A stretch of DNA of 64,000 nt from Clostridia bacterium (lineage in GTDB: Bacteria; Bacillota; Clostridia; UBA1381): the NCBI GenBank assembly GCA_017621875.1, contig JAGASE010000001.1, forward strand, positions 248,001-312,000, given 5' to 3'. The position numbers and the translations under genes are program-made. The notes under the pieces are model-generated. The model did not search any database and was not told the origin of the DNA. It saw nothing but the letters and a program-made list of their open reading frames with translations. Positions 6,364-48,582 of the stretch are shown here, one piece after another. Positions within the stretch are counted from its first letter, which is position 1. Each line of letters opens with the position of its first letter.

Positions 6364-7092
6364 ATGGCGATAGAGGTCTTTAACAGGTATGAGCATAAAT
6401 ATCTTCTTGATAAAGAGACCTACGAAAAGCTTATAGAGACGATAGAAGCTCACATGGAGCTTGATTCTTATAACTTAAACCATAATTTTTATACTATTAC
6501 AAATATATATTATGACACCGATGATGATTACCTTATACGTACATCGCTTTCAAAGCCTATATACAAGGAAAAACTGAGGCTGAGAGCATATGGAGTACCG
6601 AGGAAAGAGGATAAGGTATTTCTGGAGATTAAGAAAAAGTATAACGGCATTGTAAATAAGCGGCGCACAAAGCTTCGGCTTGATGAGGCATGTGAGTTTG
6701 CAAAGACAGGAGAGCCGCCGGAATTTAAAGAATACATGAACAAACAGGTAGTAAAGGAAATCACATATTTTCTGCATAGATACAGCCTAAAGCCCAAGCT
6801 GTATCTGGCGTATGACAGGATTGCGTACTTTGAACAGGGAAATCCGGATCTCAGAATATCCTTTGACACAAATATCCGTACGAGACGCTATGACTTAAGC
6901 TTGGACAGCGGTGACTACGGTGAGCCGTTGCTCGATAAGGACGTATATCTTATGGAAATTAAAACTGCTCGTGCAAAGCCGCTGTGGCTTGTACATGTGC
7001 TTACCGAGCTTGATATCAAGCGTCAAAACTTTTCCAAATACGGAACAGAATTTAAAAATACTGTGCCGCAAAAATTGAAAACTGCAATATGA
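6364..7092 (+). CDS. VTC-domain (polyphosphate polymerase-like) protein
   Basis: The 242-residue protein matches the VTC/CYTH-like tunnel fold. It has NRYEHKYLLDKETY at the start, then NIYYDTDDDYLIRTSL, KLRLRAYG, FLEIKKKYNGIVNKRR and a closing VYLMEIKTARAKPLWL. The alternating basic and acidic strand residues (K-x-R-x-R, E-x-K-K-K, E-x-K) are those that bind triphosphate and metal in yeast Vtc4. There is no transmembrane segment. AAGGAGGGATTAACT precedes the ATG. The next gene, a DUF4956 membrane protein, starts 10 bp later; the pairing is common in Bacillota and Bacteroidota. Polyphosphate synthesis is inferred from the family only. Confidence 0.88.
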   Translation: MAIEVFNRYEHKYLLDKETYEKLIETIEAHMELDSYNLNHNFYTITNIYYDTDDDYLIRTSLSKPIYKEKLRLRAYGVPRKEDKVFLEIKKKYNGIVNKRRTKLRLDEACEFAKTGEPPEFKEYMNKQVVKEITYFLHRYSLKPKLYLAYDRIAYFEQGNPDLRISFDTNIRTRRYDLSLDSGDYGEPLLDKDVYLMEIKTARAKPLWLVHVLTELDIKRQNFSKYGTEFKNTVPQKLKTAI

Positions 7093-7102
7093 GGTAATTA
7101 AA

Positions 7103-7789
7103 ATGGATAATTTATTTAATAATATTTTAACTAATGAATCGACCGACCTGAGCGTTTATTCGGCACTTATTAAAATGCTTGTCGCGGTTATACTCGGTGC
7201 AGTTATAGCGTTTACTTACTACAAAACCCAGGAGGAAGAAAATTTTCAAAGGAGTATTGCTATTACCCTTTTAATGCTTCCGATAATACTTTCGGTAATT
7301 ATTCTGTTTATCGGCAGCAATATCGCACGTGCATTCAGCCTGGCAGGAACTTTGTCGATAATCCGATTCAGAAGTGCACCGGGCGACCCGAAGGATATAG
7401 GCTTTATTTTCTTTGATATTGCGGCAGGTCTTGCCTGTGGAGTTGGTCTTTACGGATACGGTGCTGTTTTTGTACTTATTTTATGTATTATTCTATACAT
7501 TTCGGAAAAATATAGATGGTTTGAAAGAAAAACTGTGCAAAAGCATTTAAAAATTACCATTCCGGAGGATTTGAATTATCAGGGAGCGTTTGACGATGTT
7601 TTGAGCAAATATACAAAAAGATATTCACTTGAGAAAATCAAAACGACAGACCTTGGCTCATTGTTCGAGGTTTGCTATAATGTAACTATGGAGCAGGGCT
7701 TGAATGAACAAGAGTTCTTAAATGAGCTTCGCTGTCGAAACGGAAATTTAAGCATTATTCTTGCAGTTTCGCCGAGAATAGCAAAATAA
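7103..7789 (+). CDS. DUF4956 membrane protein
   Basis: This 228-residue protein has about four transmembrane helices: near residues 22-42 (MLVAVILGAVIAFTYY), 55-75 (LLMLPIILSVIILFIG), 80-115 with IIRFRSAPGDPKDIGFIFFD between helices, and 118-136 (YGAVFVLILCIILYIS). A soluble C-terminal domain of about 90 residues follows. The RFRSAPGDPKD loop is the DUF4956 hallmark. Function is unknown; it is regularly encoded beside VTC proteins, so it may be a membrane partner of polymer synthesis or export. It is co-oriented with its neighbours, with gaps of 10 and 14 bp. Confidence 0.85.
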   Translation: MDNLFNNILTNESTDLSVYSALIKMLVAVILGAVIAFTYYKTQEEENFQRSIAITLLMLPIILSVIILFIGSNIARAFSLAGTLSIIRFRSAPGDPKDIGFIFFDIAAGLACGVGLYGYGAVFVLILCIILYISEKYRWFERKTVQKHLKITIPEDLNYQGAFDDVLSKYTKRYSLEKIKTTDLGSLFEVCYNVTMEQGLNEQEFLNELRCRNGNLSIILAVSPRIAK

Positions 7790-7803
7790 TAAAAAGGAAA
7801 GGA

Positions 7804-9753
7804 ATGAAAACTATGAAAAAATCATTAGCAACGCTTTTGAGCGTAATCATGGCACTAAGTGTAATTGTGGTTGCTTGCAGGGCTGCCGAGGATAGCGATG
7901 AATGGAAGAATAACACAGGAGTAATTAATCTTACCGATATGACGGTAAGCGGAAGCGGAGTAAGTGTTTCCGAAAATACGATAACAATAAATGAGGGCGG
8001 TGACTTTGATGTTACGGGAACGCTTGCGGATGGAATGATTTATGTAAACACCGAGGATAAGGTCAAGCTGAGACTGAGCGGTGCGGATATCTCCAACAGT
8101 ACAGGACCGGCGATATTCTTTGATAATGTAGAAAAAGGATTTATCACTATAACCGAGGATACCGAAAACTATCTGTCTGACGGCAAAGAGTATACAGAGG
8201 AAGAGGCTGATGCGGCACTTTTCTCAAATGACGACCTTGAGATAAAGGGAAACGGTGTACTTAATATTTCGGGAAATTATAAGCACGGTATTGCCGGAGA
8301 TGACGATATTGTTATTGAAAACGGAGTTATTAATATTACGTCTTATGAGCATGGCATTAAGGCAAATGATACACTCAATATAACAGGCGGTGAAATAACC
8401 ATAAACGCTCAAACAGGTAAGGGTATGAAGGCTGGATTAGAGCTTGTAATTGATGATGGCATACTTAATATAACCACTGAAGAAAGTGAGGGGCTTGAGA
8501 GTAAGGGTATTTTGACCATAAACGGCGGAGATATTAATATAACTTCGGCTGAAGACGGCATTAATACAGGAAATGAAAGCACTGTAGCAGAAACAGCAGC
8601 AGGTGAAAGCAAGGCAGACGCTACGCAAGACGCACAACAGCCGAATAATATGAGAAATGATGCAGAAAGACCTGAAATGCCGCCGAATGAGGAAAGGCAA
8701 GCAGGTATGCGTGGACCGGGAGGCAGAGGCTTCGGTGGTCAGAGGCAAAATCGGGAGATGCCGCCGATGACAGACGGGTCAGGTATACAGATGCCGGAAG
8801 TCGGTGTCGGAGAAATGCCGAGGGGTGGAATGGCTCAGGGCGGCGGATTTGGCAGAATTGACGAGGAAACCGCCGCAGCACATGCAATAACAATAAACGG
8901 CGGCAAAATTTATATTAATGCACTTGGTGATGGTATAGATTCTAACGGAAACCTGACCATAAACGGAGGAGAAATTATAATCGACGGTCCTGTAAATAAC
9001 GGTAACGGTTCTTTGGACAGCGAGGGTACCATGGAAATTAACGGCGGAATTGTAATTGCTGCTTCAAGTGCAGGAATGATGCAGCTTCCAAGAGGTACAG
9101 ACGGTCAGAATATATTAAGAGCAGTATTTGACGAAAAGAAGGGCACAGGCACTGTGATTTCCATAAGGAATGATGAGGGCGAAGAAATCATGTCACATAC
9201 TCCGCAAAATGAGTATCAGGCTTTGATTTTCTCATCTGAACTTCTAAAGGGCAATAGTGAATACACCTTGTATACAGACGGCGAGGAATACGAAAGCTTT
9301 ACCGCAACCGAAGGACAGACCACTATTGGAAACGCTGCGGGCGGAATGGGCGGATTTCGTGATGTCGGTCAGGCACGAGGAGATAGAGGTCAAATGAGAG
9401 AAAAACGCATAAGGGTTAATATTGACGGAAACGCCGTAATATTTGACACCGAGCCGACTATTAAAAATGACACTACTCTGGTTGGTTTCCGAGCAATTTT
9501 AGAGGCATTGGGAGCAGTGGTCGAATGGGACGAGGAAACACGCACCGTAACGGCTGTTAAGGACAATATTACAATTACTCTTACTGTAAATTCCGATATT
9601 GCGAGTGTAAACGGAAAAGAGTGTACTCTTGCCGCCGCACCCGAAATTATAAATAATTCAACAATGATTCCGATAAGATTTATTTCCGAGCAGCTCGGAA
9701 TGAATGTTAAGTGGGACGATGTGACAAGGCAGATTGACGTGACATCAAAATAG
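7804..9753 (+). CDS. Secreted Cthe_2159-like beta-solenoid protein with copper amine oxidase-type C-terminal domain
   Basis: A signal peptide (MKKSLATLLSVIMALS-type, residues 4-27) is followed by a repetitive right-handed beta-solenoid of the Cthe_2159/DUF4353 carbohydrate-binding family. Its recurring rungs are LNITGGEITINA, LTINGGDINITS and ITINGGKIYINA (about residues 45-250 and 355-430). Between them, residues about 260-350, lies a low-complexity Gly/Met/Pro/Arg/Gln-rich linker. Residues about 535-649 match the copper amine oxidase N-domain fold (GFRAILEALGAVVEWD, STMIPIRFISEQLG), often a cell-wall-associated module. ATG 7804 or ATG 7813 could be the start. Cthe_2159 binds acidic polysaccharide such as polygalacturonate; the same is inferred here. 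Confidence 0.82.
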   Translation: MKTMKKSLATLLSVIMALSVIVVACRAAEDSDEWKNNTGVINLTDMTVSGSGVSVSENTITINEGGDFDVTGTLADGMIYVNTEDKVKLRLSGADISNSTGPAIFFDNVEKGFITITEDTENYLSDGKEYTEEEADAALFSNDDLEIKGNGVLNISGNYKHGIAGDDDIVIENGVINITSYEHGIKANDTLNITGGEITINAQTGKGMKAGLELVIDDGILNITTEESEGLESKGILTINGGDINITSAEDGINTGNESTVAETAAGESKADATQDAQQPNNMRNDAERPEMPPNEERQAGMRGPGGRGFGGQRQNREMPPMTDGSGIQMPEVGVGEMPRGGMAQGGGFGRIDEETAAAHAITINGGKIYINALGDGIDSNGNLTINGGEIIIDGPVNNGNGSLDSEGTMEINGGIVIAASSAGMMQLPRGTDGQNILRAVFDEKKGTGTVISIRNDEGEEIMSHTPQNEYQALIFSSELLKGNSEYTLYTDGEEYESFTATEGQTTIGNAAGGMGGFRDVGQARGDRGQMREKRIRVNIDGNAVIFDTEPTIKNDTTLVGFRAILEALGAVVEWDEETRTVTAVKDNITITLTVNSDIASVNGKECTLAAAPEIINNSTMIPIRFISEQLGMNVKWDDVTRQIDVTSK

Positions 9754-11969: not shown

Positions 11970-12698
11970 TCAGCCGCTGTATTCTGCCAGCAGTTTTCTG
12001 AGAGCCGCCATGGTTTCACTTTTCGGCTCGGGTATATCCGCAAACGGAAAAGGAATTTGCAGGTTATCGTATTTTACCTGACAAAGCTTTTTAAACGGCA
12101 AAAGCTCTATCTTATCAACACAGCAATGCTGTTCGGCAACTGCTTTAAGCGTCAATATGTTTTCTTCGTTGTCATTGAGAGTCGGAATTATAACCTGACG
12201 CAGCGTGACAGGAATCTGTTTTTCGTTCAGATAGGCAAGAAACTCTAATACCTTTTCCATGCCGCAGCCCACATGCTCGCGATAAAGTGAATCGCACGTA
12301 TATTTCAAATCCAGCAAAACGCGGTCGGTCTCATCTAAAAGGGCTTTGACCGTGTCACTTAAAATACTTCCCGAAGTATCCAGGCAGGTATGAATACCCT
12401 CCTTGTGGCAGAGTGCAAAAACTTCGCGGGCGAAATCTGCCTGCAAAAGCGGCTCGCCGCCCGAAAAAGTTATTCCGCCGCCATGTGAAAAATATTCGCG
12501 GAAGTGCAGTGCCTTTTCTGCAATTTCATGGGGCGTATATTCTGTGCCGTCCGATAGTGCCCATGTGTCAGGATTGTGGCAGCAGCTGCAGCGGAGATTA
12601 CACCCCTGCAGGAAAACCACAAAGCGAACTCCCGGACCGTCCAGCGTGCCAAGACTTTGTATCGAGTGCACACGCCCTTTTATAGAAGCTTGTGTCAT
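11970..12698 (-). CDS. pflA: Pyruvate formate-lyase activating enzyme
   Basis: A radical-SAM enzyme that puts the glycyl radical on PflB. The 242-residue protein has the CxxxCxxC cluster at Cys33, Cys37 and Cys40 ([15 protein letters not shown]), FSGGEPLLQ (SAM binding) and [15 protein letters not shown]. It lacks a ferredoxin insert, as expected for true PFL activases. It overlaps pflB by four bases and is translated from the same mRNA, probably with coupling. Confidence 0.96.
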
Positions 12699-14926
12699 AT
12701 GCTTTCGTGGAAGGTACGGCTGATAACCTCACGCTGCTGCTCACGGGAGAGCTTGTGGAAGTTAACCGCATAGCCCGATACTCTGATGGTCAGATTTGGA
12801 TATGCTTCAGGGTCTTCGTATGCCTTCATAAGTGTTTCGCGGTTTAAAACGTTTACATTAATATGATGTGCCTTCTTTGCAAAATAGCCGTCCAAAATTG
12901 CAACCAAGTTGTCGATGCGTTCCTGCTCTGTTCTGCCGAGAGCGTCGGGTGTGATTGAGAAGGTATTGGAAATACCGTCGCGGCAATCGTCATAGCTGAT
13001 TTTTGCTACAGAGTTTAATGATGCAAGAGCACCGTTTTCCTCGCGGTTGTGCATCGGATTAGCACCCGGAGCAAATGGAGCGGCAGCTTCTCTTCCGTCC
13101 GGAGTTGCACCTGTATTTTTGCCGTACATAACATTTGAGGTTATTGTCAGAACCGAAAGTGTGTGGATTGCATTGCGGTAGGTAGGAGTTTTACGCAGTT
13201 CGCAAATAACCTTGTGCGTCATATCCTTTGCAATTAAATCAACTCGGTCATCGTCATTGCCGAATTTAGGGAAATCTCCCGAGGTTTCAAACTCGGTTAT
13301 AAAGCCCTCTTCATTTTTGACAGGGCGAACCGAGGCAAATTTGATGGCACTTAATGAGTCAGCCACTACCGAAAGTCCTGCAATACCAAATGCCATAAAG
13401 CGTTCGACATCTGTGTCATGCAGAGCCATCTGAGTTTTTTCGTAAGCATACTTATCATGCATGTAGTGTATAATGTTCATCGTGTTTACATAAAGGTGAC
13501 TCAGCCAGCTGATATAAATATCAAAACGCTCCATAACTGCGTCAAAATCAAGGGTGTCACCGTCTAAAACCGGCATCTGAGGACCAATATGCATATTGCT
13601 TGTGGTGTCATAGCCGCCGTTTATGGCAATAAGCAGAAGCTTTGCCAGGTTGCAGCGAGCACCAAAAAATTGCATCTGCTTACCAACCTTCATAGCAGAA
13701 ACGCAGCAAGCGATTGCATAGTCATCGCCGTAAATAGGACGCATAACGTCGTCGTTCTCATATTGAATTGAATCGGTATCTGCAGATACCTTTGCACAGA
13801 ATCTCTTGAAATTCTCAGGCAGAGAATTTGACCAAAGCACCGTAAGGTTTGGCTCGGGAGATGAGCCGAGGGTGTAGAGTGTGTTAAGAATACGATAGCT
13901 GTTTTTAGTAACCAGCGTTCTTCCGTCCTCGCCCATGCCGCCTACAGCTTCGGTAATCCACATCGGGTCGCCGCCGAACAGCTCATTGTATTCGGGCGTT
14001 CTCAAGTGACGTGCAATACGCAGCTTCATTACGAAGTCGTCGATTAGCTCCTGTGCGGTTTCCTCTGTCAGAGTTCCATTTGCTAAATCCCGCTCGATGT
14101 AAATGTCAAAGAAGGTGCTTACGCGTCCTAAGGACATTGCCGCACCGTTCTGCTCCTTGATAGAGCCTAAATATGCAAAGTAAGTCCACTGAATTGCCTC
14201 GCGTGCATTTGCGGCAGGCTGACTGATGTCAAAGCCGTACATAGCTGCCATTTGCTTCATATGTCCCAAAAAGGCAATCTGCTGATACAGCTCCTCATTG
14301 AGGCGGATTCTCTCGGCATCAAAGTTGCCGTTTGCAAGATTGTTTTTATCATTTTGCTTTTCTTCTATTAGTTTATCCACACCATACAGAGCAACACGGC
14401 GGTAGTCACCGATAATTCTTCCTCTGCCGTATGCGTCGGGAAGACCTGTGATTACGTGGCATTTGCGGGCTTTTCGCATTTCATCGGTATAGGCACGGAA
14501 AACGCCGTCGTTGTGTGTGGTGCGGTACTGAAATTCCTCTTCAATTTTTGAGCTTAATTTATAGCCGTAAGCCTCGCATGCCTGACGAACCATTCTCATG
14601 CCGCCAAACGGGTTAACTCCGCGTTTTAGCGGGCGGTTGGTCTGCATACCGACTATAATCTCATTTTCCTTGTCAATATATCCCGGAGAGTAGCTGGTCA
14701 GAGATGAAACAGTGGCGGTATCGATGTCCAATACTCCGCCGCACTGCCTTTCCAGTGCAAAAAATGTTTCCAGCTTTTTCATCAGTGCCTGAGTACGCGG
14801 TGTAGCACATGAAAGAAAGCGGTCGTCGCCCGTATACTCCTTGTAGTTGGCTTGAATGAAATCACGCACGTTGATTTCGTCCTGCCAGATTCCTTTTACA
14901 AATCCATCCCAGTTTTTGTGTGTCAT
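12695..14926 (-). CDS. pflB: Formate C-acetyltransferase (pyruvate formate-lyase)
   Basis: PflB converts pyruvate and CoA to acetyl-CoA and formate in anaerobic mixed-acid fermentation and supplies formate for one-carbon metabolism. The 743-residue protein has the adjacent catalytic cysteines Cys407-Cys408 ([12 protein letters not shown]) and the glycyl-radical motif RVSGYAVNF with Gly718 near the end. Length and motifs match genuine PFL. AAGGAGGAAAAACAG precedes the ATG. The 5' UTR carries a ZTP riboswitch with a terminator, so expression probably rises when ZTP signals folate or one-carbon shortage. Confidence 0.98.
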
Positions 14927-38010: not shown

Positions 38011-38691
38011 TCAGTTATCGTATATATCAAAGAAGGAAAGTGCATCAAGCTCCTTCATCAGCTCCTTGGTGGACGGCTTATTGAATTTTTTCAGTATGCG
38101 GCTTATCTGCACGCGTATGCTTGGCTCCTCAACATGCCGCAGAGCGGCGATTTCGCGGTAGCTTAGTCCGTCGTGGATATATTTTAGAATTTCGTATTCG
38201 CTTTTGCTGAGCTTGGATATTATGCTGACAGAATATAAAAGGCTTTGGTTACGCTTGTATATTTTTGGGAATTGCAGAAGAAGCCTGCTTGCAATCTGCT
38301 CATTTAATCGGAAACGGTTCTTGTTTATGCTGTAAATAGAGTTAAGCACCATTGATGATGGGCTGGATTTTGTAATATAATCGGTTGCACCGTTGCCGAA
38401 AGCCTCGTATATATAATCATCGTCATCATACATTGTGCAGACAATAATGGAAATTTCGGGGTGCAGCTTCTTGATTTCGCCTATTGCCTCAATTCCCGCA
38501 AGCTCACTTTCCATTTGTATATCCATCAGAATAATGTCCGGCTTTAAGGTGTCGGCAAGCTGCACCGCCTCGCGTCCTGAAGACGCAAGACCGCAAACTT
38601 CAATATCATCACGCTGATTTAATATATTTTGAAAATGAGTTTGTATAGCCTCATTATCATCGGCTATCAGAATACGTATTTTTTCCTGCAT
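38011..38691 (-). CDS. NarL/FixJ-type response regulator
   Basis: The receiver domain has the acidic pair at Asp11-Asp12 (ILIADDNEA), phospho-acceptor Asp57 (IILMDIQM), VCTMYDDD and the lysine in DYITKSSP. The C-terminal region has a LuxR-type helix-turn-helix (LSKSEYEILKYIHDGLSYREIAALRHVEEPSIRVQISRIL), somewhat diverged. It is six bases downstream of its kinase. Its position, convergent with the 21-kb operon, makes it a candidate regulator of it. Confidence 0.9.
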   Translation of the reverse strand: MQEKIRILIADDNEAIQTHFQNILNQRDDIEVCGLASSGREAVQLADTLKPDIILMDIQMESELAGIEAIGEIKKLHPEISIIVCTMYDDDDYIYEAFGNGATDYITKSSPSSMVLNSIYSINKNRFRLNEQIASRLLLQFPKIYKRNQSLLYSVSIISKLSKSEYEILKYIHDGLSYREIAALRHVEEPSIRVQISRILKKFNKPSTKELMKELDALSFFDIYDN

Positions 38692-38697
38692 ATAATA

Positions 38698-40212
38698 TCA
38701 TCCTTTCCGCAGGCAATGCTTTTGTTTTACATCACAGGGAAAGAAAATACTGATTTGTGTTCCCTGACCGGGAGTGCTTAAAACCCGTATAAATCCACCA
38801 TGTGAGCTTATAACCTTATGTACATAAAACATTCCGACACCCCAGTAGTCCTTTTTCACTTTTGTAGTAAACAGCGGACGGAACATTTTTTTGCGTGTTT
38901 TTGCGTCCATACCAATGCCGTTGTCGGATATGCTTATCTCAACGATATCGCGGTCGGAATTTAAGAAAACTGTGATCTCTCCGTCTGTTTTTTCTGCCGC
39001 AATAATCGCGTCGGCTGCATTGCGAAGTATATTTTTGAACATCTCGGTAAGATGGTAATAGTCAAAGGTCAGCATTTTCATGTTTGTATTGTATCTGCGG
39101 TATATCTTTATATTTTCAGGTAAGTTTATCCCTGATATGGCGGTTTCAATACAGCTGATAATGTCATCATTATTTTCATCAAGGTCGATATAGTCGAAGG
39201 AGTTAAGGGTTGTTGTAATTATACTCATGGTGTTTTCCGAGAGGCTGCTTATTGTTTTAAAAATTTCATCCTTCTGCTTTGGTGAGTCAGTGCTAAGGCC
39301 TTGTCCGCTTAATGCCTGTATTGTCAGTAAGTGATTCTTAAATGAGTGGAAATAAGTACGCAGCTGTTTCTTTGTTTTTGCAGCACTTTTGTTTAAAAAG
39401 AAGCTTTTTACCTTGATAATTGAACCGAAGGTTTTATAATGGAATACTGAAAATATCATGAATGCGGTTATGAAGAGTGTAAATACTCCAAGCATGATAT
39501 ACGTGTTACCCGACATGAAATAAGGATGCCCTGTAAAGGAAAGCAAAAGCTGAGAAATTTTAATGGTATCCGTACTCCATACGGTGTTCTGTAAAAGGAA
39601 AAACATGTAAAGCACATTAAGGGAAAGCATATAAATGTTATATGAAAATATCTGCCATTTTCTCAGCCATATGGTGGTTGAGCGGTATGCGTTAAACAGG
39701 ATAAGATTGTTATAGCATACGTTTAAAATAAGCAGTATTATTGCTCCGTTGCGGACAGTGTTCCATACAATGAAAAGACACGGCGGAAGGGAATGATAAT
39801 ATATTGTCTGATAAACCCATGTGCTTACAGATGGCTGCTGTGTTACAAAATATATCAGGCAGAAAACCGCAGTTAAAGAAATTCTTCTGTTGTACTTATG
39901 AGGCAGAAAATCAAGAGTGAACAGCATGCATACGAGTGCGTAGAGAATCAGGCTGAAATGCAGCAGTCTTATAAGAAAGTAGTAGTTCAGCTTGACCTGA
40001 GACAGCTGCATATAAAAATTATAGTCTAAGGTATACAGCGGATTTCCTGTGTATTGATAGGTCAGAGACTTAGATGATAAAAAAATGCTTGTAATCATGA
40101 CAAGACAAAAGCTGAGTATAATGAACAGGAATTTATAGGTGTATTTGCTTTGCGGATTATTTATAAAAAGAAGCAGTGCAAGTGCCGCAAGCATTATGAG
40201 TACATAAGTCAT
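38698..40212 (-). CDS. Sensor histidine kinase with multi-pass membrane sensor
   Basis: The first 265 residues hold about seven hydrophobic helices (TYVLIMLAALALLLFI, FLFIILSFCLVMITSIF, LRISLTAVFCLIYFV and others). A short helical region with YFHSFKNHLLTIQALSG then supplies the likely phospho-His (KNHL, as in LytS/AgrC-like kinases). The HATPase domain has NILRNAADAIIAAEK, ISDNGIGMD and WGVGMFYVHKVISSHGG. ATG 40212 follows AAGGGG; an in-frame GTG at 40221 has no room for a ribosome-binding site. It pairs with the downstream response regulator. The membrane domain could sense a ligand within the bilayer; none is evident. Confidence 0.88.
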   Translation of the reverse strand: MTYVLIMLAALALLLFINNPQSKYTYKFLFIILSFCLVMITSIFLSSKSLTYQYTGNPLYTLDYNFYMQLSQVKLNYYFLIRLLHFSLILYALVCMLFTLDFLPHKYNRRISLTAVFCLIYFVTQQPSVSTWVYQTIYYHSLPPCLFIVWNTVRNGAIILLILNVCYNNLILFNAYRSTTIWLRKWQIFSYNIYMLSLNVLYMFFLLQNTVWSTDTIKISQLLLSFTGHPYFMSGNTYIMLGVFTLFITAFMIFSVFHYKTFGSIIKVKSFFLNKSAAKTKKQLRTYFHSFKNHLLTIQALSGQGLSTDSPKQKDEIFKTISSLSENTMSIITTTLNSFDYIDLDENNDDIISCIETAISGINLPENIKIYRRYNTNMKMLTFDYYHLTEMFKNILRNAADAIIAAEKTDGEITVFLNSDRDIVEISISDNGIGMDAKTRKKMFRPLFTTKVKKDYWGVGMFYVHKVISSHGGFIRVLSTPGQGTQISIFFPCDVKQKHCLRKG

Positions 40213-40251
40213 AAAATACACCCCTTAAAAACCTGAATAATTCCACTTATA

Positions 40252-40464: not shown

Positions 40465-42678
40465 CTACAGTTCGCTTAAAAATCTGTCCACAACGAGCTG
40501 ACGAAATTCGGGTGAAAGGCTTGCAAAATATGCCGTAAAGCCTGTTACACGAACAACAAGGTCGGGGTGGAGGTCAGGATTTTTATGTGCCTCCAAAAGC
40601 TTTTCTCCGTCTAACACGTTTATATTAATCAGTGTGCCGCCCTGTCTGAAATGTGTTTCGATAAGGTTTAACACAACCTCAACGCCCTTTTCGTCTGCTG
40701 CCACCTGCGGGTCAAATTCAAGCTGAAGCGGTGCAGTGTTGCCGTAGCCGCACTGAACTGATGCAATTCCGCTTGCCTGTGCAGTGGCTGCACCGTCACC
40801 TCGAAAATGAGGATTGGGATTTGCACCGTGAGAAACCGGCTCGCCGCTGCGGCGTCCGTTCGGCGTTGCACCTACATTTTTTCCGTATTCAATCGTTCTT
40901 GCCCAGGAAAACCAGCCGGGAATGAGCTGTCGCCCTTTTGGCATTTTCTGTTCCTTAACAGCGTTTGTCCAGCTTTTTGTAAGCTCTTTTGCCCAAAGGT
41001 CAGAGAGTGTTCCGCCATGACAGTATTTGGGTGTGGAGCTTAAAATAAGCCGTATTCTTTCGTCCGCAAAATTACTGTCAAGGGCAGTATAAACCTCATC
41101 CCAAGTGAGCAGCTTTTCCTTTTCCACTCTTGTTTCAAGAGCACCGAAGGAGTCTGCCACAACCGCCAATCCGACACCGTCTACGCCGACTGTGTAAAGC
41201 TCTGCACATTTTGAAATGTCCTCGCCGAGTTCTATAGAATTTTCCATCATCAAATTCATAACAAGCTCAGGAGTTACCTCCCATTGATGTTCAAGGTGCA
41301 GATTAATGCCTGCCGCAGTAACCTCGACTGCCTTTTTCAGATGCTTCTTGTATATTTCATAGAGCCTTTGGGTTGATTTGTTTTTTTCGGACTTCATTTC
41401 GGAAAGTGCAACGTCAAAGACTTTTGCAATATTAATTTTCACGGTATCGTTCATGGGAAATTCCTTGCCAGGAACACACATCCAGTTGCAGCCTACAGCA
41501 ATCCGTTCTCTTGCAGTCCTTTTGTCAATTCCGTTTCGCATATAGCCCTCGGCTAAAGCTTTGTCATTACAAAATCTTGGCCAGCCATTTTTGTTTTTCA
41601 AGAGATAATAAACTGCCTTCTTCAAAAACTCTTTGTCACAGTTTTCATGCACTCTCACCGTAAGATTGCAGGCAATATTAATAGAATCCGCAGCCTCCAA
41701 AATCAGATAGGAAAGGTGATTTGTCATATCCTCGTCATTTTCATTTACGCCGGAAATTTGGTAATAGTGCGGGTCGGTAAGCAAAAGATTTGCTATTAAA
41801 AACTTCGCTGTTTCATCATCTAAGATTCCGTTTTTAATGTCGTTTTCGTAATAAGGAAGAAGCAGTCCATCAAGCTGAAAGCCTGCCCCGTCACGGGTAT
41901 ATATTCTTGACGCACAATTAAAATATACCGTCCATTGACATACCTCATGAAAGGTTTTCGGTGCGTCGAGTCTGATATTTTTATTGACGGCAAGCATTTT
42001 TTCAAGACTTGCCTTGATTTCAGTTCTTTTTTCTGTTTTGATTTGTCTTTCTATTTCCTCAATATGCCTGTCTATAAACCTTATTATCGTCTTGACAACC
42101 TTTTCTTCGGCGTTGTAAAAGTACTGCTTTTCGGGGTTGATTTTTCTGTATTTTTCTATTTTATCCAAAAATCCGCCGAATCCAAGTCTGAATCCGATGC
42201 GGTAGTCACAGGCAAAATGGGCATCGCCGTCAATTCCTGTCTGAATGTTGTATTTTTCCTGAAATGGCTTCAGGTCATCATAAGGAAACCGCTGTTCGTC
42301 CCAACGCTTTGACCATTGATTCGTTGCAGTTTTCATAAATTCCATAGTTTTTGGTCTTTTTTTCAGCCAGTCCGGCATATAGTGAAGGTCGCCGCGGTAA
42401 TTTACCAGCATATCACGCCACCTACCGCACAGCATTTCCATGGGATCGACATATGCAGGATGTGCGTCAATTACGCGGCAGAAGTTTTCGCTCATTCCAT
42501 CATAGCCGTAAAAGCTGCCGTTTGAGCTGTTATACCACGGCTCCACTTCATATTCGGGAGTGATGGGAACTGTACCAAAGTCATCAAGGTCGGTATAGCC
42601 GTTTTGTTCTCTTTTTGCAAGTGTATGCCGGATTTTTGTGTCCCTCATTGATTTTAATCTGTCAGCGTATGTAAGCAT
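40465..42678 (-). CDS. Glycyl radical enzyme of unassigned class (Cys-Asn-Trp active-site loop)
   Basis: The 737-residue protein is a glycyl radical enzyme: glycyl loop RVTGFTAYF with Gly713 near the C-terminus, the finger ININVLDGEKLLEAHKNP before it, and active-site Cys397 in RIAVGCNWMCVPGKE. In diol dehydratases, choline lyase and related enzymes the Cys is followed by Val-Glu; pyruvate formate-lyase has Cys-Cys. Here it is Asn-Trp, with no catalytic Glu two residues on and a second Cys at 401. This does not fit a class I recognise. It overlaps its activase by 17 bases and sits last in an operon of sugar-type dehydrogenases, so the substrate is probably a sugar derivative; reaction unknown. 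Confidence 0.9.
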   Translation of the reverse strand: MLTYADRLKSMRDTKIRHTLAKREQNGYTDLDDFGTVPITPEYEVEPWYNSSNGSFYGYDGMSENFCRVIDAHPAYVDPMEMLCGRWRDMLVNYRGDLHYMPDWLKKRPKTMEFMKTATNQWSKRWDEQRFPYDDLKPFQEKYNIQTGIDGDAHFACDYRIGFRLGFGGFLDKIEKYRKINPEKQYFYNAEEKVVKTIIRFIDRHIEEIERQIKTEKRTEIKASLEKMLAVNKNIRLDAPKTFHEVCQWTVYFNCASRIYTRDGAGFQLDGLLLPYYENDIKNGILDDETAKFLIANLLLTDPHYYQISGVNENDEDMTNHLSYLILEAADSINIACNLTVRVHENCDKEFLKKAVYYLLKNKNGWPRFCNDKALAEGYMRNGIDKRTARERIAVGCNWMCVPGKEFPMNDTVKINIAKVFDVALSEMKSEKNKSTQRLYEIYKKHLKKAVEVTAAGINLHLEHQWEVTPELVMNLMMENSIELGEDISKCAELYTVGVDGVGLAVVADSFGALETRVEKEKLLTWDEVYTALDSNFADERIRLILSSTPKYCHGGTLSDLWAKELTKSWTNAVKEQKMPKGRQLIPGWFSWARTIEYGKNVGATPNGRRSGEPVSHGANPNPHFRGDGAATAQASGIASVQCGYGNTAPLQLEFDPQVAADEKGVEVVLNLIETHFRQGGTLININVLDGEKLLEAHKNPDLHPDLVVRVTGFTAYFASLSPEFRQLVVDRFLSEL

Positions 42679-43429
42679 ATTTACTAAGCTCCTTCATATA
42701 TTCCTTTGACGGGATTTCAAATTCTGTTATTGGCTTGCATAGTGCTTTTGCCTTTGCAGTGCCTAATGAATGATAAGGTAAAAGCTCATATGCAACCACG
42801 TTTTTTAGTGTCCCTGAAAATTCTGATATTTTATCTATCTCCTGATTTATTCGGGGGATTACAGGTGTTCTCAAAATAATCGGAATATTCAGCTTGTCAA
42901 GCATTTTGAAATGCTCTTTTATATTATAATTATCTGTCCCTAAATATTTTTTGTGTAGCTCGCCGTCCCATATTTTTAGGTCTGCCATTATGAAATCAAG
43001 ATTTTTAAAAATGTCCTCATCATAGTATATAAGCGAGGTTTCGACAGCACAGCCTATATCGGAGTTTTTGCACAGTCTGATTATTTCCTTCAAAAAATCC
43101 TTTTGTGCCAGCGGCTCGCCGCCTGAAAATGTTACTCCTCCGTTTTCGCCGTAGTAGTCCTTATCAAGAAGAATTTCGCAAAGCAGCTCATCTGGCGTAT
43201 ATTCCTTGCCGCAAACTACTTTTGCACCGGCAAAGCAGCCTTCGCTGCACTTTCCGCAGCCAATACATTTTTCGGGATAATGTAAAATTTCTTTTTCAAA
43301 AGATATGCATTCGGGATTGTGGCACCACGGGCAGGAAAGCGGACAGCCCTTGAAAAAGATAGTTGTGCGTATTCCGTATCCGTCGTGAATAGATGCCCGT
43401 TGTATATCGGTTATCAGTCCTTTAATCAC
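42662..43429 (-). CDS. Glycyl radical enzyme activase (radical SAM)
   Basis: The 255-residue protein starts with ASIHDGYGIRTTIFFKGCPLSCPWCHNPE, where Cys29, Cys33 and Cys36 hold the radical-SAM cluster. A short ferredoxin-like insert with CIGCGKCSEGC (Cys55, 58, 61, 65) holds one extra 4Fe-4S cluster. Many activases of non-PFL glycyl radical enzymes have two such clusters, so this insert is reduced. [13 protein letters not shown] follows. It would form the Gly713 radical on the adjacent enzyme, whose start codon it overlaps. Confidence 0.94.
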   Translation of the reverse strand: MIKGLITDIQRASIHDGYGIRTTIFFKGCPLSCPWCHNPECISFEKEILHYPEKCIGCGKCSEGCFAGAKVVCGKEYTPDELLCEILLDKDYYGENGGVTFSGGEPLAQKDFLKEIIRLCKNSDIGCAVETSLIYYDEDIFKNLDFIMADLKIWDGELHKKYLGTDNYNIKEHFKMLDKLNIPIILRTPVIPRINQEIDKISEFSGTLKNVVAYELLPYHSLGTAKAKALCKPITEFEIPSKEYMKELSKYAYIR

Positions 43430-44522
43430 GGATTTCTTCCTCTTTTCTGCTTGCGGAACTCTTTATGGCTGCGTCTAAAATTGACATAACCTTCATATTT
43501 TCCTTTAGTGTCAGCATCGGATGGATTTCTTTGCCGTATATTTTATAATTTGCATACTGCCACGGCATATTTTTAAATTCATCACCAACCTCGATATCGG
43601 GAAGCTCAATTTCGTTTCCGTAAATATCATATGCTTTAACGTCGGGCTGATTTTCCGCACCGCCCGTGCACATTATAACGCCATCGGTGCAAAGCACCAT
43701 CGGACCTGAAGGGATAACGGCTCTCGGAGTTGACCATGTTCCCTCAATTACCGACATTTTTCCGTCATAGCGGATAACTGCGGCAAAATTGTCCTCGGTA
43801 TCGCCAAAGGGAGTGTTAAGATTTTCTCCGACCGAGACCACGCTTGTTGCACCGCTGCCCAAAAACCATTCCGAGAAAAAGCAACCGTAGCAGCAAATAT
43901 CGAGGTATACGCCGCCTCCAAGCTGTGATTTATGCCACCACGTTTTTGCACGCTGCTCGTCGGTCATTTCCTCGGCATTTTCCGAAACGCCTCTGTGCTT
44001 GGCACCTTTTCCCAAAGGTCCTGTGTGACCGTTTATATATCGTAATTTAATCGGCTCTCCAACGATTTTTTTGTCGAGTGCAGCTTTCATTTTAAGAATG
44101 TATTTACGCCACACAACGGGCCAGTTTACGACTGCCTCAATGCTATATTTTTTTACGCTTTCTTCTATTTTTTTTGCTTCATCAAGACTTACCGCGATAG
44201 GCTTTTCTATTGAAACATTCACGCCTCTTTTTGCACATTCTGTGACTATTTCGGGCTTTTTACAGTTTTCGGCCATGATGAATGCAATATCCGGCTTGAC
44301 CTCGTCAAGCATTACTCTGTAGTCGTCATAAACCTTGCTGCAGTAGTTGTTTTTTACATTTTCCATGTTCCACTTCGGTGTGTACCGAAGCGGCGGGATT
44401 TCCTCTGTGTTTTCCGCACAATCTGCAATAGCACAAAGCTCAAAATCCGGCTGCTCATGAATATACAGTGCGATTTCGTTTACATGCATATGTGAAAATC
44501 CGATTATTACTGATTTTATCAT
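43422..44522 (-). CDS. Gfo/Idh/MocA family oxidoreductase (third of the operon)
   Basis: The N-terminal Rossmann domain begins MIKSVIIGFSHMHVNEIA, a diverged version of the GxGxxG loop, with VSIEKPIAVSLDEA carrying the family EKP lysine. The C-terminal domain has LGGGVYLDICCYGCFFSEWFLG, equivalent to the GGGxxxDxxxH substrate region but with Cys-Tyr in place of the usual His. Length 366 is normal. The altered nucleotide loop and missing His suggest a changed substrate or a non-standard role. It overlaps its neighbours by four and eight bases. Confidence 0.85.
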   Translation of the reverse strand: MIKSVIIGFSHMHVNEIALYIHEQPDFELCAIADCAENTEEIPPLRYTPKWNMENVKNNYCSKVYDDYRVMLDEVKPDIAFIMAENCKKPEIVTECAKRGVNVSIEKPIAVSLDEAKKIEESVKKYSIEAVVNWPVVWRKYILKMKAALDKKIVGEPIKLRYINGHTGPLGKGAKHRGVSENAEEMTDEQRAKTWWHKSQLGGGVYLDICCYGCFFSEWFLGSGATSVVSVGENLNTPFGDTEDNFAAVIRYDGKMSVIEGTWSTPRAVIPSGPMVLCTDGVIMCTGGAENQPDVKAYDIYGNEIELPDIEVGDEFKNMPWQYANYKIYGKEIHPMLTLKENMKVMSILDAAIKSSASRKEEEIRD

Positions 44523-45598
44523 TTTAATTCCTCCATAAATATCTCACGACCAAGCTCTGCAGAACGGTAGAAGAGGTCGATTATTGCGGAAACGTTAATT
44601 GTTTCCTCCGGCGTTACTATCGGGCTTTCTTCGCCTTTTAAAGCCTTTCTCAGGTTGTCGGCAAGGAAAATATGTCCAGGGAATTTTGAGTCATAAGGAA
44701 TTTTGGTGGGCATAAGGTGTTCTTCGGAGTTTTCGCCTGAATATATTTTACATTCAGGAAGATAAACTCCTCTTTTTTTGCCAATTAAGCGTATATCTGA
44801 CGCTTCGGGCATATTTGCAGCCCACGCAACCTTAAAGGACACCTGTGCATTATTTTCAAAGGTGATTATACCGCTTGAAAAATCCTCAACGTCCATTTCG
44901 TCGGGATTAAATTTTCTGATATTATCCACATTTCCCGTTAATGCACCGCTTGATTCCAAAGAGCCAATTTCGTCCTTGTGGTTTTGCATTGTGACCGCAC
45001 GGACAGATTTTACTTTTTTGTTTCCCATAAGCCACACAAGTGCGTCCAGCATATGCACGCCGATGTCAATAAAAGCACCGCCGCAGCTTATTTTCTTCAT
45101 ATGAAATGTACCCCAGAACGGAATTCCTCGTCTGCGGATTCTTGAAAGCTCGCCGTAGTAAATGTCTTCAGTGCCGTTTTCATCAAGGTGCTTTTTTGCC
45201 GCCAGGCGGTCGGGAGTAAAACGCATACTCTGGCACGCCATTAAAATTTTTCCGTTTTTCTTAGCGGTATCAAACAATTCCACTGCGTCACTATATGTAA
45301 CCGCAAGCGGCTTTTCGCACAGCACATTTGCACCGTAGGAAAGAGCCATTAATGTGTATTCTTTATGGAAACAGTTTGGTACACAAACCGAAACCACATC
45401 CGGCTTTTGCTCCTTCAACATAGTTTCTGCATCGGTATAAAAGCAGTTGATGCCGTGCCTTTTCGCAGTTTCCCTTGCGGCCGTTTCATTTATATCGCAA
45501 ACGCCGACAATTTCATAGTCATCGGGAAAGCTTTTGAATGCCGGAATGTGTGCCGAATTTGCAATCATTCCGCAGCTTATTATGCATACTTTAAACAT
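44519..45598 (-). CDS. Gfo/Idh/MocA family oxidoreductase (second of the operon)
   Basis: A canonical family member of 359 residues: MFKVCIISCGMIANSAHIPAF at the start, NVLCEKPLAVTYSDAVELF (EKP), and GGAFIDIGVHMLDALVWLMG with the catalytic-type Asp and His. These enzymes oxidise or reduce a sugar hydroxyl with NAD(P). It overlaps the isomerase-like gene upstream by eight bases and the third dehydrogenase by four. Confidence 0.9.
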   Translation of the reverse strand: MFKVCIISCGMIANSAHIPAFKSFPDDYEIVGVCDINETAARETAKRHGINCFYTDAETMLKEQKPDVVSVCVPNCFHKEYTLMALSYGANVLCEKPLAVTYSDAVELFDTAKKNGKILMACQSMRFTPDRLAAKKHLDENGTEDIYYGELSRIRRRGIPFWGTFHMKKISCGGAFIDIGVHMLDALVWLMGNKKVKSVRAVTMQNHKDEIGSLESSGALTGNVDNIRKFNPDEMDVEDFSSGIITFENNAQVSFKVAWAANMPEASDIRLIGKKRGVYLPECKIYSGENSEEHLMPTKIPYDSKFPGHIFLADNLRKALKGEESPIVTPEETINVSAIIDLFYRSAELGREIFMEELK

Positions 45599-46364
45599 TT
45601 TCTGCCTCCTTTAAAAATCCCAAAGTTTCGCCGTCGTGTTTTGTGCTTCTATATTCCAAACCAATAAAACCGGCGTAATCAGTTTTATTGATTTCGCGGA
45701 TTATGCTTACATAATCCACATTACCTGTGCCCGGCTCATGCCTGCCGGGAGCGTCTGCAACATGAAAATGACCGATTAAATCAATGTTCTTTAAAACCTC
45801 ATCTAAATTAAAATCACCCATCATATTTTGGTGATAAATGTCATACAGCATTTTTATATTGGTACTGCCGACTTTTTTCAAAAGCTCAAATATCGGCTTT
45901 GCATAAGGCATTGAGTAGTTTTTTCGGTCAATGTCATTGAGCGGCTCGATTATGAGAGTAACATCTTCCTTTTCAACAATCGGTTTTGCCGCCATAAGGC
46001 ATTTTAAAACATTCTCCTCACTGTATTTCGCATTTTCGCCGATTAAGACAATCATTGCCGAGGCTTTCAGCTTTTTATAAACAGGTATACTCTCGGAAAG
46101 TGCTTTTAAAAAGTCATCACATCTTCCCGCATTTAAAATACCTCGTGATAAGTCATATGAAAGGTTTTCGTTCGCAGAATCAATATTGAAAACGGAAACG
46201 GACATATTTTCACTGTCCAAAAGATTGCGTATGCTGCCAATATCCTTGTTGGTCCATTTCCAAAATTCGACCGTATTAATACCGCTTTTTTTGACCTCGC
46301 CAAAGCGGTCGTAAAAATCGCAGTATGAATACATCATATCTATGCAGCAGCTTATTTTTGCCAA
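45591..46364 (-). CDS. Hydroxypyruvate isomerase-like sugar-phosphate isomerase/epimerase (TIM barrel)
   Basis: The 257-residue protein has the AP-endonuclease-2-type TIM barrel. Metal-binding motifs typical of Hyi-like enzymes are LIIEPLN (Glu), MLYDIYHQNMM (Asp/His), IGHFHVADAPGRHEPGTGNVDY (His) and FIGLEYRST (Glu). Relatives isomerise or epimerise keto-sugars, and some act on 3-keto-glycosides made by Gfo/Idh enzymes. Encoded between Gfo/Idh genes, it probably acts on the product of one of them. Confidence 0.88.
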   Translation of the reverse strand: MAKISCCIDMMYSYCDFYDRFGEVKKSGINTVEFWKWTNKDIGSIRNLLDSENMSVSVFNIDSANENLSYDLSRGILNAGRCDDFLKALSESIPVYKKLKASAMIVLIGENAKYSEENVLKCLMAAKPIVEKEDVTLIIEPLNDIDRKNYSMPYAKPIFELLKKVGSTNIKMLYDIYHQNMMGDFNLDEVLKNIDLIGHFHVADAPGRHEPGTGNVDYVSIIREINKTDYAGFIGLEYRSTKHDGETLGFLKEAENV

Positions 46365-46390: not shown

Positions 46391-47656
46391 TCAATAAGGC
46401 TTTTCGTCAAAATCTATTGTTCCCCAATCATCGGGAGCTTTTCCTACATATGGAATTTTAAGTGTTTTGCCGCCCAGCATTGCACTTTCGTGTGCCTTTA
46501 TTCCGGTAATGGTATATGTAGCCGCCATCCATGGGTTCACGGGCGGCAGTTTTCCTGTTATAACAGCTCTTACGAAATCATCTACCAAGAATATGTGTGA
46601 GCCGTTGTGCCCCATAACGGCATTAACGTGTGCGTTTTGGTCGATGGTCAATAAATTTTGCGGAAGTCTTTTGAGGTTGTGTATTTTTGAAAAGCCCATC
46701 ATATAGAAATAATCGGTTCGGCCGTCCTCCTCACGCATTTTGCCCTTGTTATTGACAAAATTGAAGGTGTTGATTTCATCACTGACTGTTTCTGAGGTGA
46801 ACTCGCCATTTTGAGGTACGTTTCTGCTAAAAAGATGCTGATTTCCGCTGCCCTCATATGCCCCTTTGTCGCCGTATAAGCCTGTGATATATGATGTCGG
46901 TCTTACGTTACCGCAGCGTCTGAATTCATTAATACGAGCGATTCCGCCGCCGCTCATTCTAAGGATTGCGGTTTCGTTGCTAAAGGGATTGTCCCAGTCA
47001 TTATTTCCCTTGCCGTAAATTCCATCGCCTTCTGTATCCTCATAACCAAAGCAGGTTACGTCAAGCGGATATTGGTCTATTGCCGAAAAAAGCATAGACA
47101 TGGAATGAGTTGCGTAATACATGGGCGGAATACCGGCAATTCTCTTCCAATTATCGCCCTGTGCGGAGAACGAGCCGTACATATCCATAATATCATGATA
47201 ATACTGCGATTCGCCGTAAACAAATTTGCCAAATCTTCCGGCTTGGTAGTTTTCTCTGCACCAGACTGCACAAGGGAAGTAGTAGCAGGTTTCCGCCATC
47301 ATATATATGAGCCGCTTTTCCTCTGCGATTTTCAGTATTTCCATTACCTCTTCCTCGGTACAGCCCATCGGAACGGCAGAAAATACGTGTTTCCCGGATT
47401 TAAGCCCCTGAATTACCATTGGACCATGCTGATGCCGCTGTGAAAAAATTCCCACGCAATTAAGTTCGGGCACCTTTTCGAGCATTTCATCATATGATGA
47501 ATACATTTCAATACCGTAAGTTTCTGAAATATGCTTTCTTCGGTCGGCGATAAGCTCCGCACCGACTACTTTACCTACGCCCGGATGCTGAAGCCATATA
47601 TCTAAAAAGCTTTCAGAAAATTCGCCGAAGCCTACTATGCCTATGTTTACTTTCAT
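46391..47656 (-). CDS. Gfo/Idh/MocA family oxidoreductase (first of the operon)
   Basis: The 421-residue protein begins MKVNIGIVGFGEFSESFLDIW (GxGxx-type nucleotide loop) and has HVFSAVPMGCTEEEVMEIL where EKP is normally found, so the conserved Glu-Lys-Pro is replaced by Ala-Val-Pro. ATHSMSMLFSAIDQYPLDV follows. It is longer than its two paralogues downstream, with an extended C-terminal sheet. Loss of EKP makes ordinary dehydrogenase chemistry uncertain; lyase-like or deglycosidase relatives exist. It is the first gene after the divergent promoter, with a GAGGTGG ribosome-binding site. Confidence 0.83.
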   Translation of the reverse strand: MKVNIGIVGFGEFSESFLDIWLQHPGVGKVVGAELIADRRKHISETYGIEMYSSYDEMLEKVPELNCVGIFSQRHQHGPMVIQGLKSGKHVFSAVPMGCTEEEVMEILKIAEEKRLIYMMAETCYYFPCAVWCRENYQAGRFGKFVYGESQYYHDIMDMYGSFSAQGDNWKRIAGIPPMYYATHSMSMLFSAIDQYPLDVTCFGYEDTEGDGIYGKGNNDWDNPFSNETAILRMSGGGIARINEFRRCGNVRPTSYITGLYGDKGAYEGSGNQHLFSRNVPQNGEFTSETVSDEINTFNFVNNKGKMREEDGRTDYFYMMGFSKIHNLKRLPQNLLTIDQNAHVNAVMGHNGSHIFLVDDFVRAVITGKLPPVNPWMAATYTITGIKAHESAMLGGKTLKIPYVGKAPDDWGTIDFDEKPY

Positions 47657-47772: not shown

Positions 47773-48582
47773 ATGTACGAAAAATTCAAGGAGCTTATGA
47801 AGACTGATTTCAGGCTTGAAAATCTGCATACAATTTCAAATACTGTAACGCCTCCGGTGCCCTTTGTGTGCAGCCATAACTGTGTTTTGCACGACAGATT
47901 TTTCTATATTGTAAAAGGAAAGATTATTTTTGACTCAAATACTAAAAAGGAGCAGTCTTTTTCGGCAGGAGATATTGTTTATCTGCCTTATGACATAACC
48001 TATACCTCGATGTGGGACACGGCGGAGAGTGGTGAATATATATCGGTTAATTTTATGATGTTTGATGAGGAAAACAGGCTTTTATCTATTGCGGACAGAA
48101 TCACCTTGCTGATACATGATTCCTCAAAAAAATATTTTGACCTATTTAATGAAATACATAAAGTCTGGTCCTTCGGCTCACTTGGATACGGTATTAAAAG
48201 CAAATCTCTTTTTTACAATCTCTGCTTTCAGCTTACTGCCGATTTTGAAAGCAAGAGCCTGAAAAAACAACATTCGGGAATTTACAAAACGATACTATTC
48301 CTTGAAAATAATTATATGTCGGATATTTCGACGGGGGAGCTTGCGAGAATGTGTGGTCTTAAAGAATGTATGTTCCGCAGACTGTTTAAAAAAATCAAGG
48401 GAATGTCGCCTGTCAAATACAGAAATATGCTGCGTGTGAAAAAAGCTCACGAAATGCTTTCAAGCGGGGAATTTACTGTTATAGAGGCTGCAATCGTAAC
48501 CAACTTTAACGACGCAAGCTTTTTTAACCGTGAGTTTAAAAAATATTACGGAATAAATCCGTCAGAATGCATCCCTAAATAG
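47773..48582 (+). CDS. AraC-family transcriptional regulator of the glycyl radical operon
   Basis: An N-terminal cupin-type ligand domain (HNCVLHDRFFYIVKGKIIFD, then FSAGDIVYLPYD) is followed by two AraC helix-turn-helix units (DISTGELARMCGLKECMFRRLFKKIKGMSPVKY and FTVIEAAIVTNFNDASFFNREFKKYYG). AAAAGGAGG precedes the ATG. Divergent position and overlapping promoters make it the likely sugar-responsive activator of the six-gene operon. Confidence 0.93.
   Translation: MYEKFKELMKTDFRLENLHTISNTVTPPVPFVCSHNCVLHDRFFYIVKGKIIFDSNTKKEQSFSAGDIVYLPYDITYTSMWDTAESGEYISVNFMMFDEENRLLSIADRITLLIHDSSKKYFDLFNEIHKVWSFGSLGYGIKSKSLFYNLCFQLTADFESKSLKKQHSGIYKTILFLENNYMSDISTGELARMCGLKECMFRRLFKKIKGMSPVKYRNMLRVKKAHEMLSSGEFTVIEAAIVTNFNDASFFNREFKKYYGINPSECIPK

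Follow-up and report, generated by a model that had tools for sequence, protein, structure and literature searches.

We found that the glycyl radical enzyme (GRE) encoded by one gene of the window, by which we mean the whole stretch of 64,000 nucleotides analyzed here, almost certainly belongs to a separate, undescribed clade. Its members, the CXW GREs, form a new subfamily within a known superfamily, and the Cys-X-Glu (CXE) motif that defines the GRE eliminases is broken in them. The substrate is likely to be a sugar or a glycoside. Our preferred, still tentative, reading is that the enzyme is an active GRE working on an unphosphorylated sugar, after or before its C3 oxidation by a DgpA-like neighbor. 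No description of the clade was found in the open (non-subscription) literature that we searched, but it may have appeared before, unlabelled, as one of the clusters in a network.

The gene is a single open reading frame with an ATG start and zero internal stops (Table 1). The Pfam models PFL-like and Gly_radical scored 302.6 bits (cut-off 24.3) and 53.7 bits (cut-off 22.2), respectively. An AlphaFold2 model built from 38 relatives had a pLDDT of 91 and a pTM of 0.91, and the top Foldseek matches of this model were GREs only, at TM values of about 0.8. The propanediol, glycerol, N-methylhydroxyproline, and PflD-type dehydratases came first, with TM of 0.82-0.84 at ~20% identity. The protein thus has the PFL-like barrel, the C-terminal RVxG glycine, and the catalytic cysteine of the superfamily, as well as a radical-SAM activase. 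The initial annotation had described a complete GRE with Cys397, Gly713, and an activase, and the intact reading frame, the Pfam scores, the fold match, and the TIGR02494 score of the activase all bear it out.

Table 1. Coordinates of the genes and codons discussed in the text (positions in the window).
Feature	Coordinates	Strand	Remarks
Glycyl radical enzyme (GRE), GC[NHQ]W clade	40465..42678	-	737 aa; ORF, Pfam, AlphaFold2, Foldseek
Gly713 codon, glycyl radical site	40540..40542	-	RVTGF motif; invariant in 40/40
Glu406 codon (Cys+9), candidate substitute base	41461..41463	-	43/43 in the clade vs 10/91 other GREs
Trp399 codon, where GRE eliminases have the CXE glutamate	41482..41484	-	Trp in 40/40 and in 3/3 GCQW
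Catalytic Cys397 codon	41488..41490	-	AVGCNWMC; aligned to GDH, PflD, HypD; invariant in 40/40
Asp263 codon, at or beside the HypD Asp278 position	41890..41892	-	26/40, confined to the part of the clade that includes the query; aligned to within one residue
His154 codon, HypD/GDH beta1 His position	42217..42219	-	Invariant in the clade
Radical-SAM activating enzyme	42662..43429	-	255 aa; TIGR02494 238 bits (cut-off 174); 17-nt overlap with the GRE start
GfoA, Gfo/Idh-family oxidoreductase	43422..44522	-	EKP retained, Tyr in place of the active-site His; most constant neighbor
GfoB, predicted DgpA-type glycoside 3-oxidoreductase	44519..45598	-	Best PDB relatives DgpA1/DgpA; EKP and D-x3-H intact
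Hyi-like TIM-barrel isomerase/epimerase	45591..46364	-	Pfam AP_endonuc_2; TIGR03234 149.6 bits, under the cut-off of 353
GfoC, Gfo/Idh-fold protein	46391..47656	-	EKP catalytic-lysine motif replaced by AVP
AraC-type regulator, divergent	47773..48582	+	Pfam HTH_18, Cupin_3

Identity to the characterized GREs was low, about 20-25%. All 12 NCBIfam GRE models scored the query far under their cut-offs, and no equivalog was approached, in agreement with the earlier placement of the enzyme outside the known classes. Scores and cut-offs in bits were 154 and 1050 for CutC, 201 and 1100 for HypD, 194 and 1000 for HpsG and 186 and 1000 for HpfG (the sulfopropanediol dehydratases), 116 and 1150 for HPAD, and 109 and 1100 for indoleacetate decarboxylase. 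The X-succinate synthases (BSS/MasD) and IslA, which entered the comparison through solved-structure scores and not as named tree rows, showed 15-18% identity in fold alignment. We rejected pyruvate formate-lyase, as the query has a single Cys followed by Asn in place of the Cys-Cys pair and scored 73.6 bits with TIGR01255 vs the required 994.2. A threonyl, alanyl, or seryl radical enzyme (AARE) was rejected as well, since Gly713 is present and invariant.

The loop at the catalytic cysteine sets the clade apart. GC[N/H]W was observed in all 40 tabulated relatives, down to about 39% identity, and GCQW in three distant ones. Residue 398 is therefore Asn or His in the family and Gln in the sister group, while Trp399 occurs without exception. 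Because of this constancy of Trp399 and variability of Asn398, the motif is better written as GC[NHQ]W than as GCNW. In the initial annotation the residues after the catalytic Cys were given as Asn-Trp-Met-Cys; the loop had been read correctly and its Trp is constant, but Asn398 varies, and Met400 and Cys401 are not conserved. Cys401, the sole extra cysteine near Cys397, is Cys in only 26 of the 40. For comparison, we aligned 91 further GREs of this class and phylum at Cys397; position Cys+2 was Glu in 78, another residue in 13, and Trp in none.

The CXE motif is conserved among GRE eliminases, a group made up of GD, PD, CutC, HypD, and IslA, and its Glu is generally assigned to deprotonation of the substrate hydroxyl (PMC7077986, PMC8473560); the IslA E470Q and HypD E436Q variants are inactive (PMC8473560, PMC7077986). 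The query has C-N-W and its relatives CXW at this place, so the loss of the general-base Glu suggested earlier is true at the sequence position.

Beyond the loop, ~80 columns were invariant in the alignment of 38 sequences (39-81% identity to the query), among them His154, Asp158, Cys397, Trp399, Pro403, Gly404, Glu406, Asp411, His446, Asp500, His617, and Gly713. Several clade residues replace those usual in GREs: His446 for Gln, His617 for Asp, Asn620 for Ser, Gln652 for Asn, Asn685 for Gln, and Thr712 for Ala or Gly. The GCQW sequences (L125/L074, L128, L073) share Trp399, Glu406, Asn620, Gln652, Asn685, and Thr712. Loop lengths differ too. The stretch 298-310 is fixed at 13 residues in the clade, compared to 33 in the largest class of other GREs (range 10-34), which makes the loop before Tyr305 about 20 residues shorter than in the commonest form; the loop 258-270 is also shorter than in other GREs.

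The best structural matches, the B12-independent glycerol and 1,2-propanediol dehydratases (1r8w, 9rco; TM about 0.82), have the same barrel and ~22% identity to the query. The positions of His164 and Asp447 of glycerol dehydratase (GDH) correspond to His154 and Asp411, whereas Glu435 is replaced by Trp399 and, besides the shorter loop before Tyr305, the loop with His281 and Ser282 has become shorter and different. These two GDH residues of the alcohol-binding loop fall in the shortened loop of the clade. The clade has thus lost the CXE Glu and a part of the alcohol-binding loop, with the His and Asp411 positions kept, and its pocket is remodelled.

In HypD, His160, adjacent to the CXE Glu, is essential, as is Asp278 (PMC7077986, PMC8473560). 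His160 aligns with the query His154; Asp278 falls on Asp263 in the profile alignment and is one residue off in the MAFFT alignment. HypD differs from the query in its CVE motif and other pocket residues. Candidate replacements for the CXE Glu would be the invariant Glu406, His154, and Asp263. However, Glu at Cys+9 stands alongside the CXE Glu in 7 of the 78 CXE enzymes, so Glu406 is not a plain swap for it. As the authors of the IslA paper caution, the chemistry of a GRE is difficult to foresee from its sequence.

Whole genomes were sampled from the family (70), the order (95), the class (391), and the phylum (399), and nine further loci, at 67-80% identity, came from named MAG contigs. We collected 43 distinct loci and aligned 38 near-full-length sequences. 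Two trees were built with the motif columns excluded, one of 120 rows and one of 57 rows under a mixture model; E. coli YbiW and PflD are rows of the latter, as is a sequence that scores above the HypD cut-off. Support values are SH-aLRT from quick searches, on rows other than named decarboxylases, succinate synthases, or IslA. GC[NH]W formed one clade with support of 100 in both trees, and GCQW was its sister with support of 98-99, again in both; L125 (GCQW) is 26-29% identical to the family. The separate cluster that had been predicted was thus recovered, the GC[NHQ]W enzymes being monophyletic in each tree and standing apart from E. coli YbiW and PflD, the HypD sequence, and the other Clostridia GREs. 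Membership in the YbiW/PflD family was rejected: each of these two pairs with other GREs, the CXW enzymes are separate at SH-aLRT of 98, and identity is 24-25%.

Clade members were found in 26 other genomes of the class sample, and the phylum sample contained two genomes outside the class with a member (G811, G781). Eight further genomes from the genus of the query all lacked one, which makes the distribution patchy. The source organism is a gut bacterium; all close relatives with names are MAGs, and wild and domestic ruminants are the gut hosts of several.

Some other GREs also deserve mention. The CXE Glu is absent from L173 and L187 (GCVV), L185 (GCNL), L038 (GCNN), L121 (GCVQ), and L152 (GCNQ), Clostridia GREs with separate places in the tree. 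The query's own genome codes for two short GREs of 660-665 aa with an Ala-Cys-Trp-Glu loop (L111, G000:C18:67082-68668, and L112, G000:C20:19918-21240); they form their own clade in the tree and are unusual and apparently uncharacterized. An ordinary pyruvate formate-lyase-like GRE with an ACCV loop lies with its activase in the window at 11970-14926 (minus strand).

The GRE gene is the last in a tight minus-strand run that starts with GfoC, the Hyi-like gene, GfoB, GfoA, and the activase. GfoC is followed by a 26-nt gap; every other junction in the run is an overlap. We observed neither a kinase nor a PTS gene in the operon. The divergent AraC-type gene is, judging by position, the probable local regulator. 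Downstream, the two-component pair at 38011-40221 (minus strand) has a strong promoter-like site of its own at 40280-40252 and is therefore probably a separate unit. Farther away, 16925-37972 (plus strand) holds a sugar-type ABC transporter (binding protein and two permeases), then large S-layer-anchored BNR/CBM96 proteins, and also a nucleoside-hydrolase-like protein; it looks like a surface glycan-use cluster.

The activase has CxxxCxxC and one ferredoxin-type cysteine motif; the activases inspected in GCHW groups are longer (~300 aa), with two such motifs vs one. The neighbors agree with the earlier description: three genes have the Gfo/Idh fold, two of them as Gfo/Idh genes proper, and one encodes a Hyi-like TIM barrel. 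They show weak similarity to inositol dehydrogenases and isomerases. The earlier description of them as sugar-type was upheld and sharpened by GfoB. Against the PDB, GfoB matched DgpA1 (E 1e-51) and DgpA (2e-48) over residues 6-353, the next relative being at 5e-26. It has full-length DgpA relatives and the EKP and D-x3-H motifs of this type, from which DgpA-type activity is predicted. At one locus an alternative partner, 40% identical to GfoB, had DgpA as its top match (3e-53; next other kind 1e-25). GfoC may not be a normal dehydrogenase given AVP in place of EKP, a change present in all GfoC homologs with the motif aligned (homologs at L008, L011, L012, L014, L079, L080, L086, L095, L096, and L107). 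The GfoC model is nearest to levoglucosan dehydrogenase and GH109 alike, so that no function follows from it.

We compared neighborhoods within 8 kb at 20 loci with at least 67% identity, 19 of them informative. GfoA was present in 16 of the 19, a DgpA-type gene (GfoB or the alternative partner) in 14, and the Hyi-like gene in 9; the co-occurrence with Gfo/Idh and Hyi-like genes foreseen in the initial annotation is thus seen among close loci. The activase gene adjoins the GRE in most loci. Three loci (L010, L013, L015) have the GRE with its activase but neither GfoA nor a DgpA-like gene. At L013 and L015 a second GRE (~715 aa, GCGE loop) adjoins the GC[NH]W GRE and its activase at about 7060-9208 (plus strand), with large CBM4_9 proteins near the paired GREs. 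One GCHW group has a cupin, a phosphomannose-isomerase-like protein, a psicose-epimerase-like TIM barrel, and GfoC alongside; a PDB search with this cupin gave no meaningful relative. Other distant clade members stand beside GH38 or GH2 enzymes. A sugar theme is common to much of the clade, but subgroups probably differ in the exact substrate.

The strongest competing explanation, though an unlikely one, is an ordinary eliminase whose base has moved to Glu406 or another carboxylate and which dehydrates an unphosphorylated anhydroalditol or sugar in the manner of YbiW and PflD. Glu406 is invariant wherever Trp399 occurs, the distant GCQW sequences included, and the His164 and Asp447 positions of GDH are retained as His154 and Asp411. 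YbiW and PflD dehydrate PTS-supplied 1,5-anhydroglucitol-6-phosphate and 1,5-anhydromannitol-6-phosphate (PMC12441222), and show that GREs are able to act on anhydrosugars. PflD is also the top PDB profile match of the query. On the other hand, both enzymes have a CVE motif, phosphorylated substrates, and a separate place in the tree, where the CXW clade is sister to neither; the seven GREs with both glutamates and the operon without a kinase or PTS gene speak against this explanation too.

An improbable explanation has the GRE cleave C-C bonds of C-glycosides, or the aglycone off a 3-oxo-glycoside, and so replace DgpBC after DgpA-like oxidation. DgpA oxidizes C3 of C- and O-glucosides, a step followed, in the case of puerarin, by C-C bond cleavage through DgpBC (PMC8563793, PMC11239390). 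The adjacent DgpA-like gene at most close loci would fit such a replacement. The C-deglycosylase subunit CGDB (PF19906, the DgpB family), as a rule the successor of DgpA, was detected in 0 of 15 carrier genomes, several of them incomplete, though it is detectable in the class (above the cut-off in 4 of 382 genomes, our positive control). Membership in the DgpABC C-deglycosylation system itself was rejected on this result from 15 genomes: GfoB is DgpA-type and lies beside a sugar-isomerase-like TIM barrel, but the operon also has a GRE and an activase. Against the replacement, 3-oxo-glycosides readily eliminate through ionic chemistry, and this would make a radical enzyme unneeded. DgpA-type enzymes oxidize O-glycosides too (PMC11239390), and GfoA, GfoC, and the Hyi-like protein are left unexplained. 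The open literature searched did not link GREs with C-glycosides, nor in a relevant way with 3-keto-glycosides.

Somewhat less probable still is an enzyme that epimerizes or isomerizes a sugar or cyclitol by radical chemistry, removing the hydrogen and returning it on the opposite face. There being no leaving group, the CXE Glu would be unneeded, and both it and the His281/Ser282 loop of GDH are lost; the inositol-dehydrogenase and isomerase similarities of the neighbors point the same way. A radical epimerase would normally require a second hydrogen donor, however, and Cys401, the only extra cysteine near Cys397, is present in only 26 of 40, while Gfo/Idh and TIM-barrel enzymes can epimerize keto-sugars without radicals. 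A degenerate, non-catalytic GRE with a drifted loop, to which the ~20-25% identity to characterized GREs might point, is very improbable given the invariance of Cys397, Gly713, Trp399, Glu406, His154, and ~80 further columns in 38 sequences and the activase adjoining in most loci.

We return to an active CXW GRE, which we infer acts on a free or C3-oxidized sugar or glycoside. The activase would generate the radical at Gly713, and it would pass to Cys397 as a thiyl, as in GREs generally. The thiyl would take a hydrogen atom from a ring carbon of a sugar that may be stacked on Trp399 (the stacking is a guess), and the sugar radical would lose a beta C-O group, be it water, an aglycone, or the ring oxygen. 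His154, Asp263, or Glu406, again guesses, could transfer the proton in place of the CXE glutamate; hypothetically, a carbonyl already on the sugar could spare the usual deprotonation step. The neighboring DgpA-like dehydrogenase would oxidize the C3 hydroxyl, most likely before (or else after) the GRE step, and isomerization and reduction of the product would fall to the Hyi-like protein and the remaining Gfo/Idh enzymes. The DgpA-like partner at 14 of the 19 informative close loci, the 15 carrier genomes in which CGDB was not found, the GREs already known to act on anhydrosugars, and the sugar genes beside distant members favor this reading. Conversely, co-location is no proof of a shared pathway, the GCHW groups have other neighbors, and Asp263 is not clade-wide and moves by one residue against HypD Asp278 from one alignment to the other.

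Several of the most demanding reactions of anaerobic gut microbes depend on GREs, and many abundant ones are functionally unassigned according to reviews (PMC11574389). Since the CXW clade replaces a motif described as eliminase-wide, it offers a natural test of whether radical elimination needs the CXE Glu. The operon narrows the candidate substrates to sugars or glycosides oxidized at C3 by DgpA-type enzymes, and together with the CXW motif these sugar-oxidizing neighbors probably indicate new anaerobic radical chemistry on sugars. More speculatively, the CXW GREs could be a new catalytic class, with thiyl chemistry on C3-oxidized sugars or glycosides, a dispensable CXE Glu, and a sugar-stacking Trp instead. 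If so, anaerobes would gain a radical branch of 3-oxo-glycoside breakdown. With close relatives that are MAGs, several of them from the ruminant gut, the reaction may matter for the breakdown of plant glycosides.
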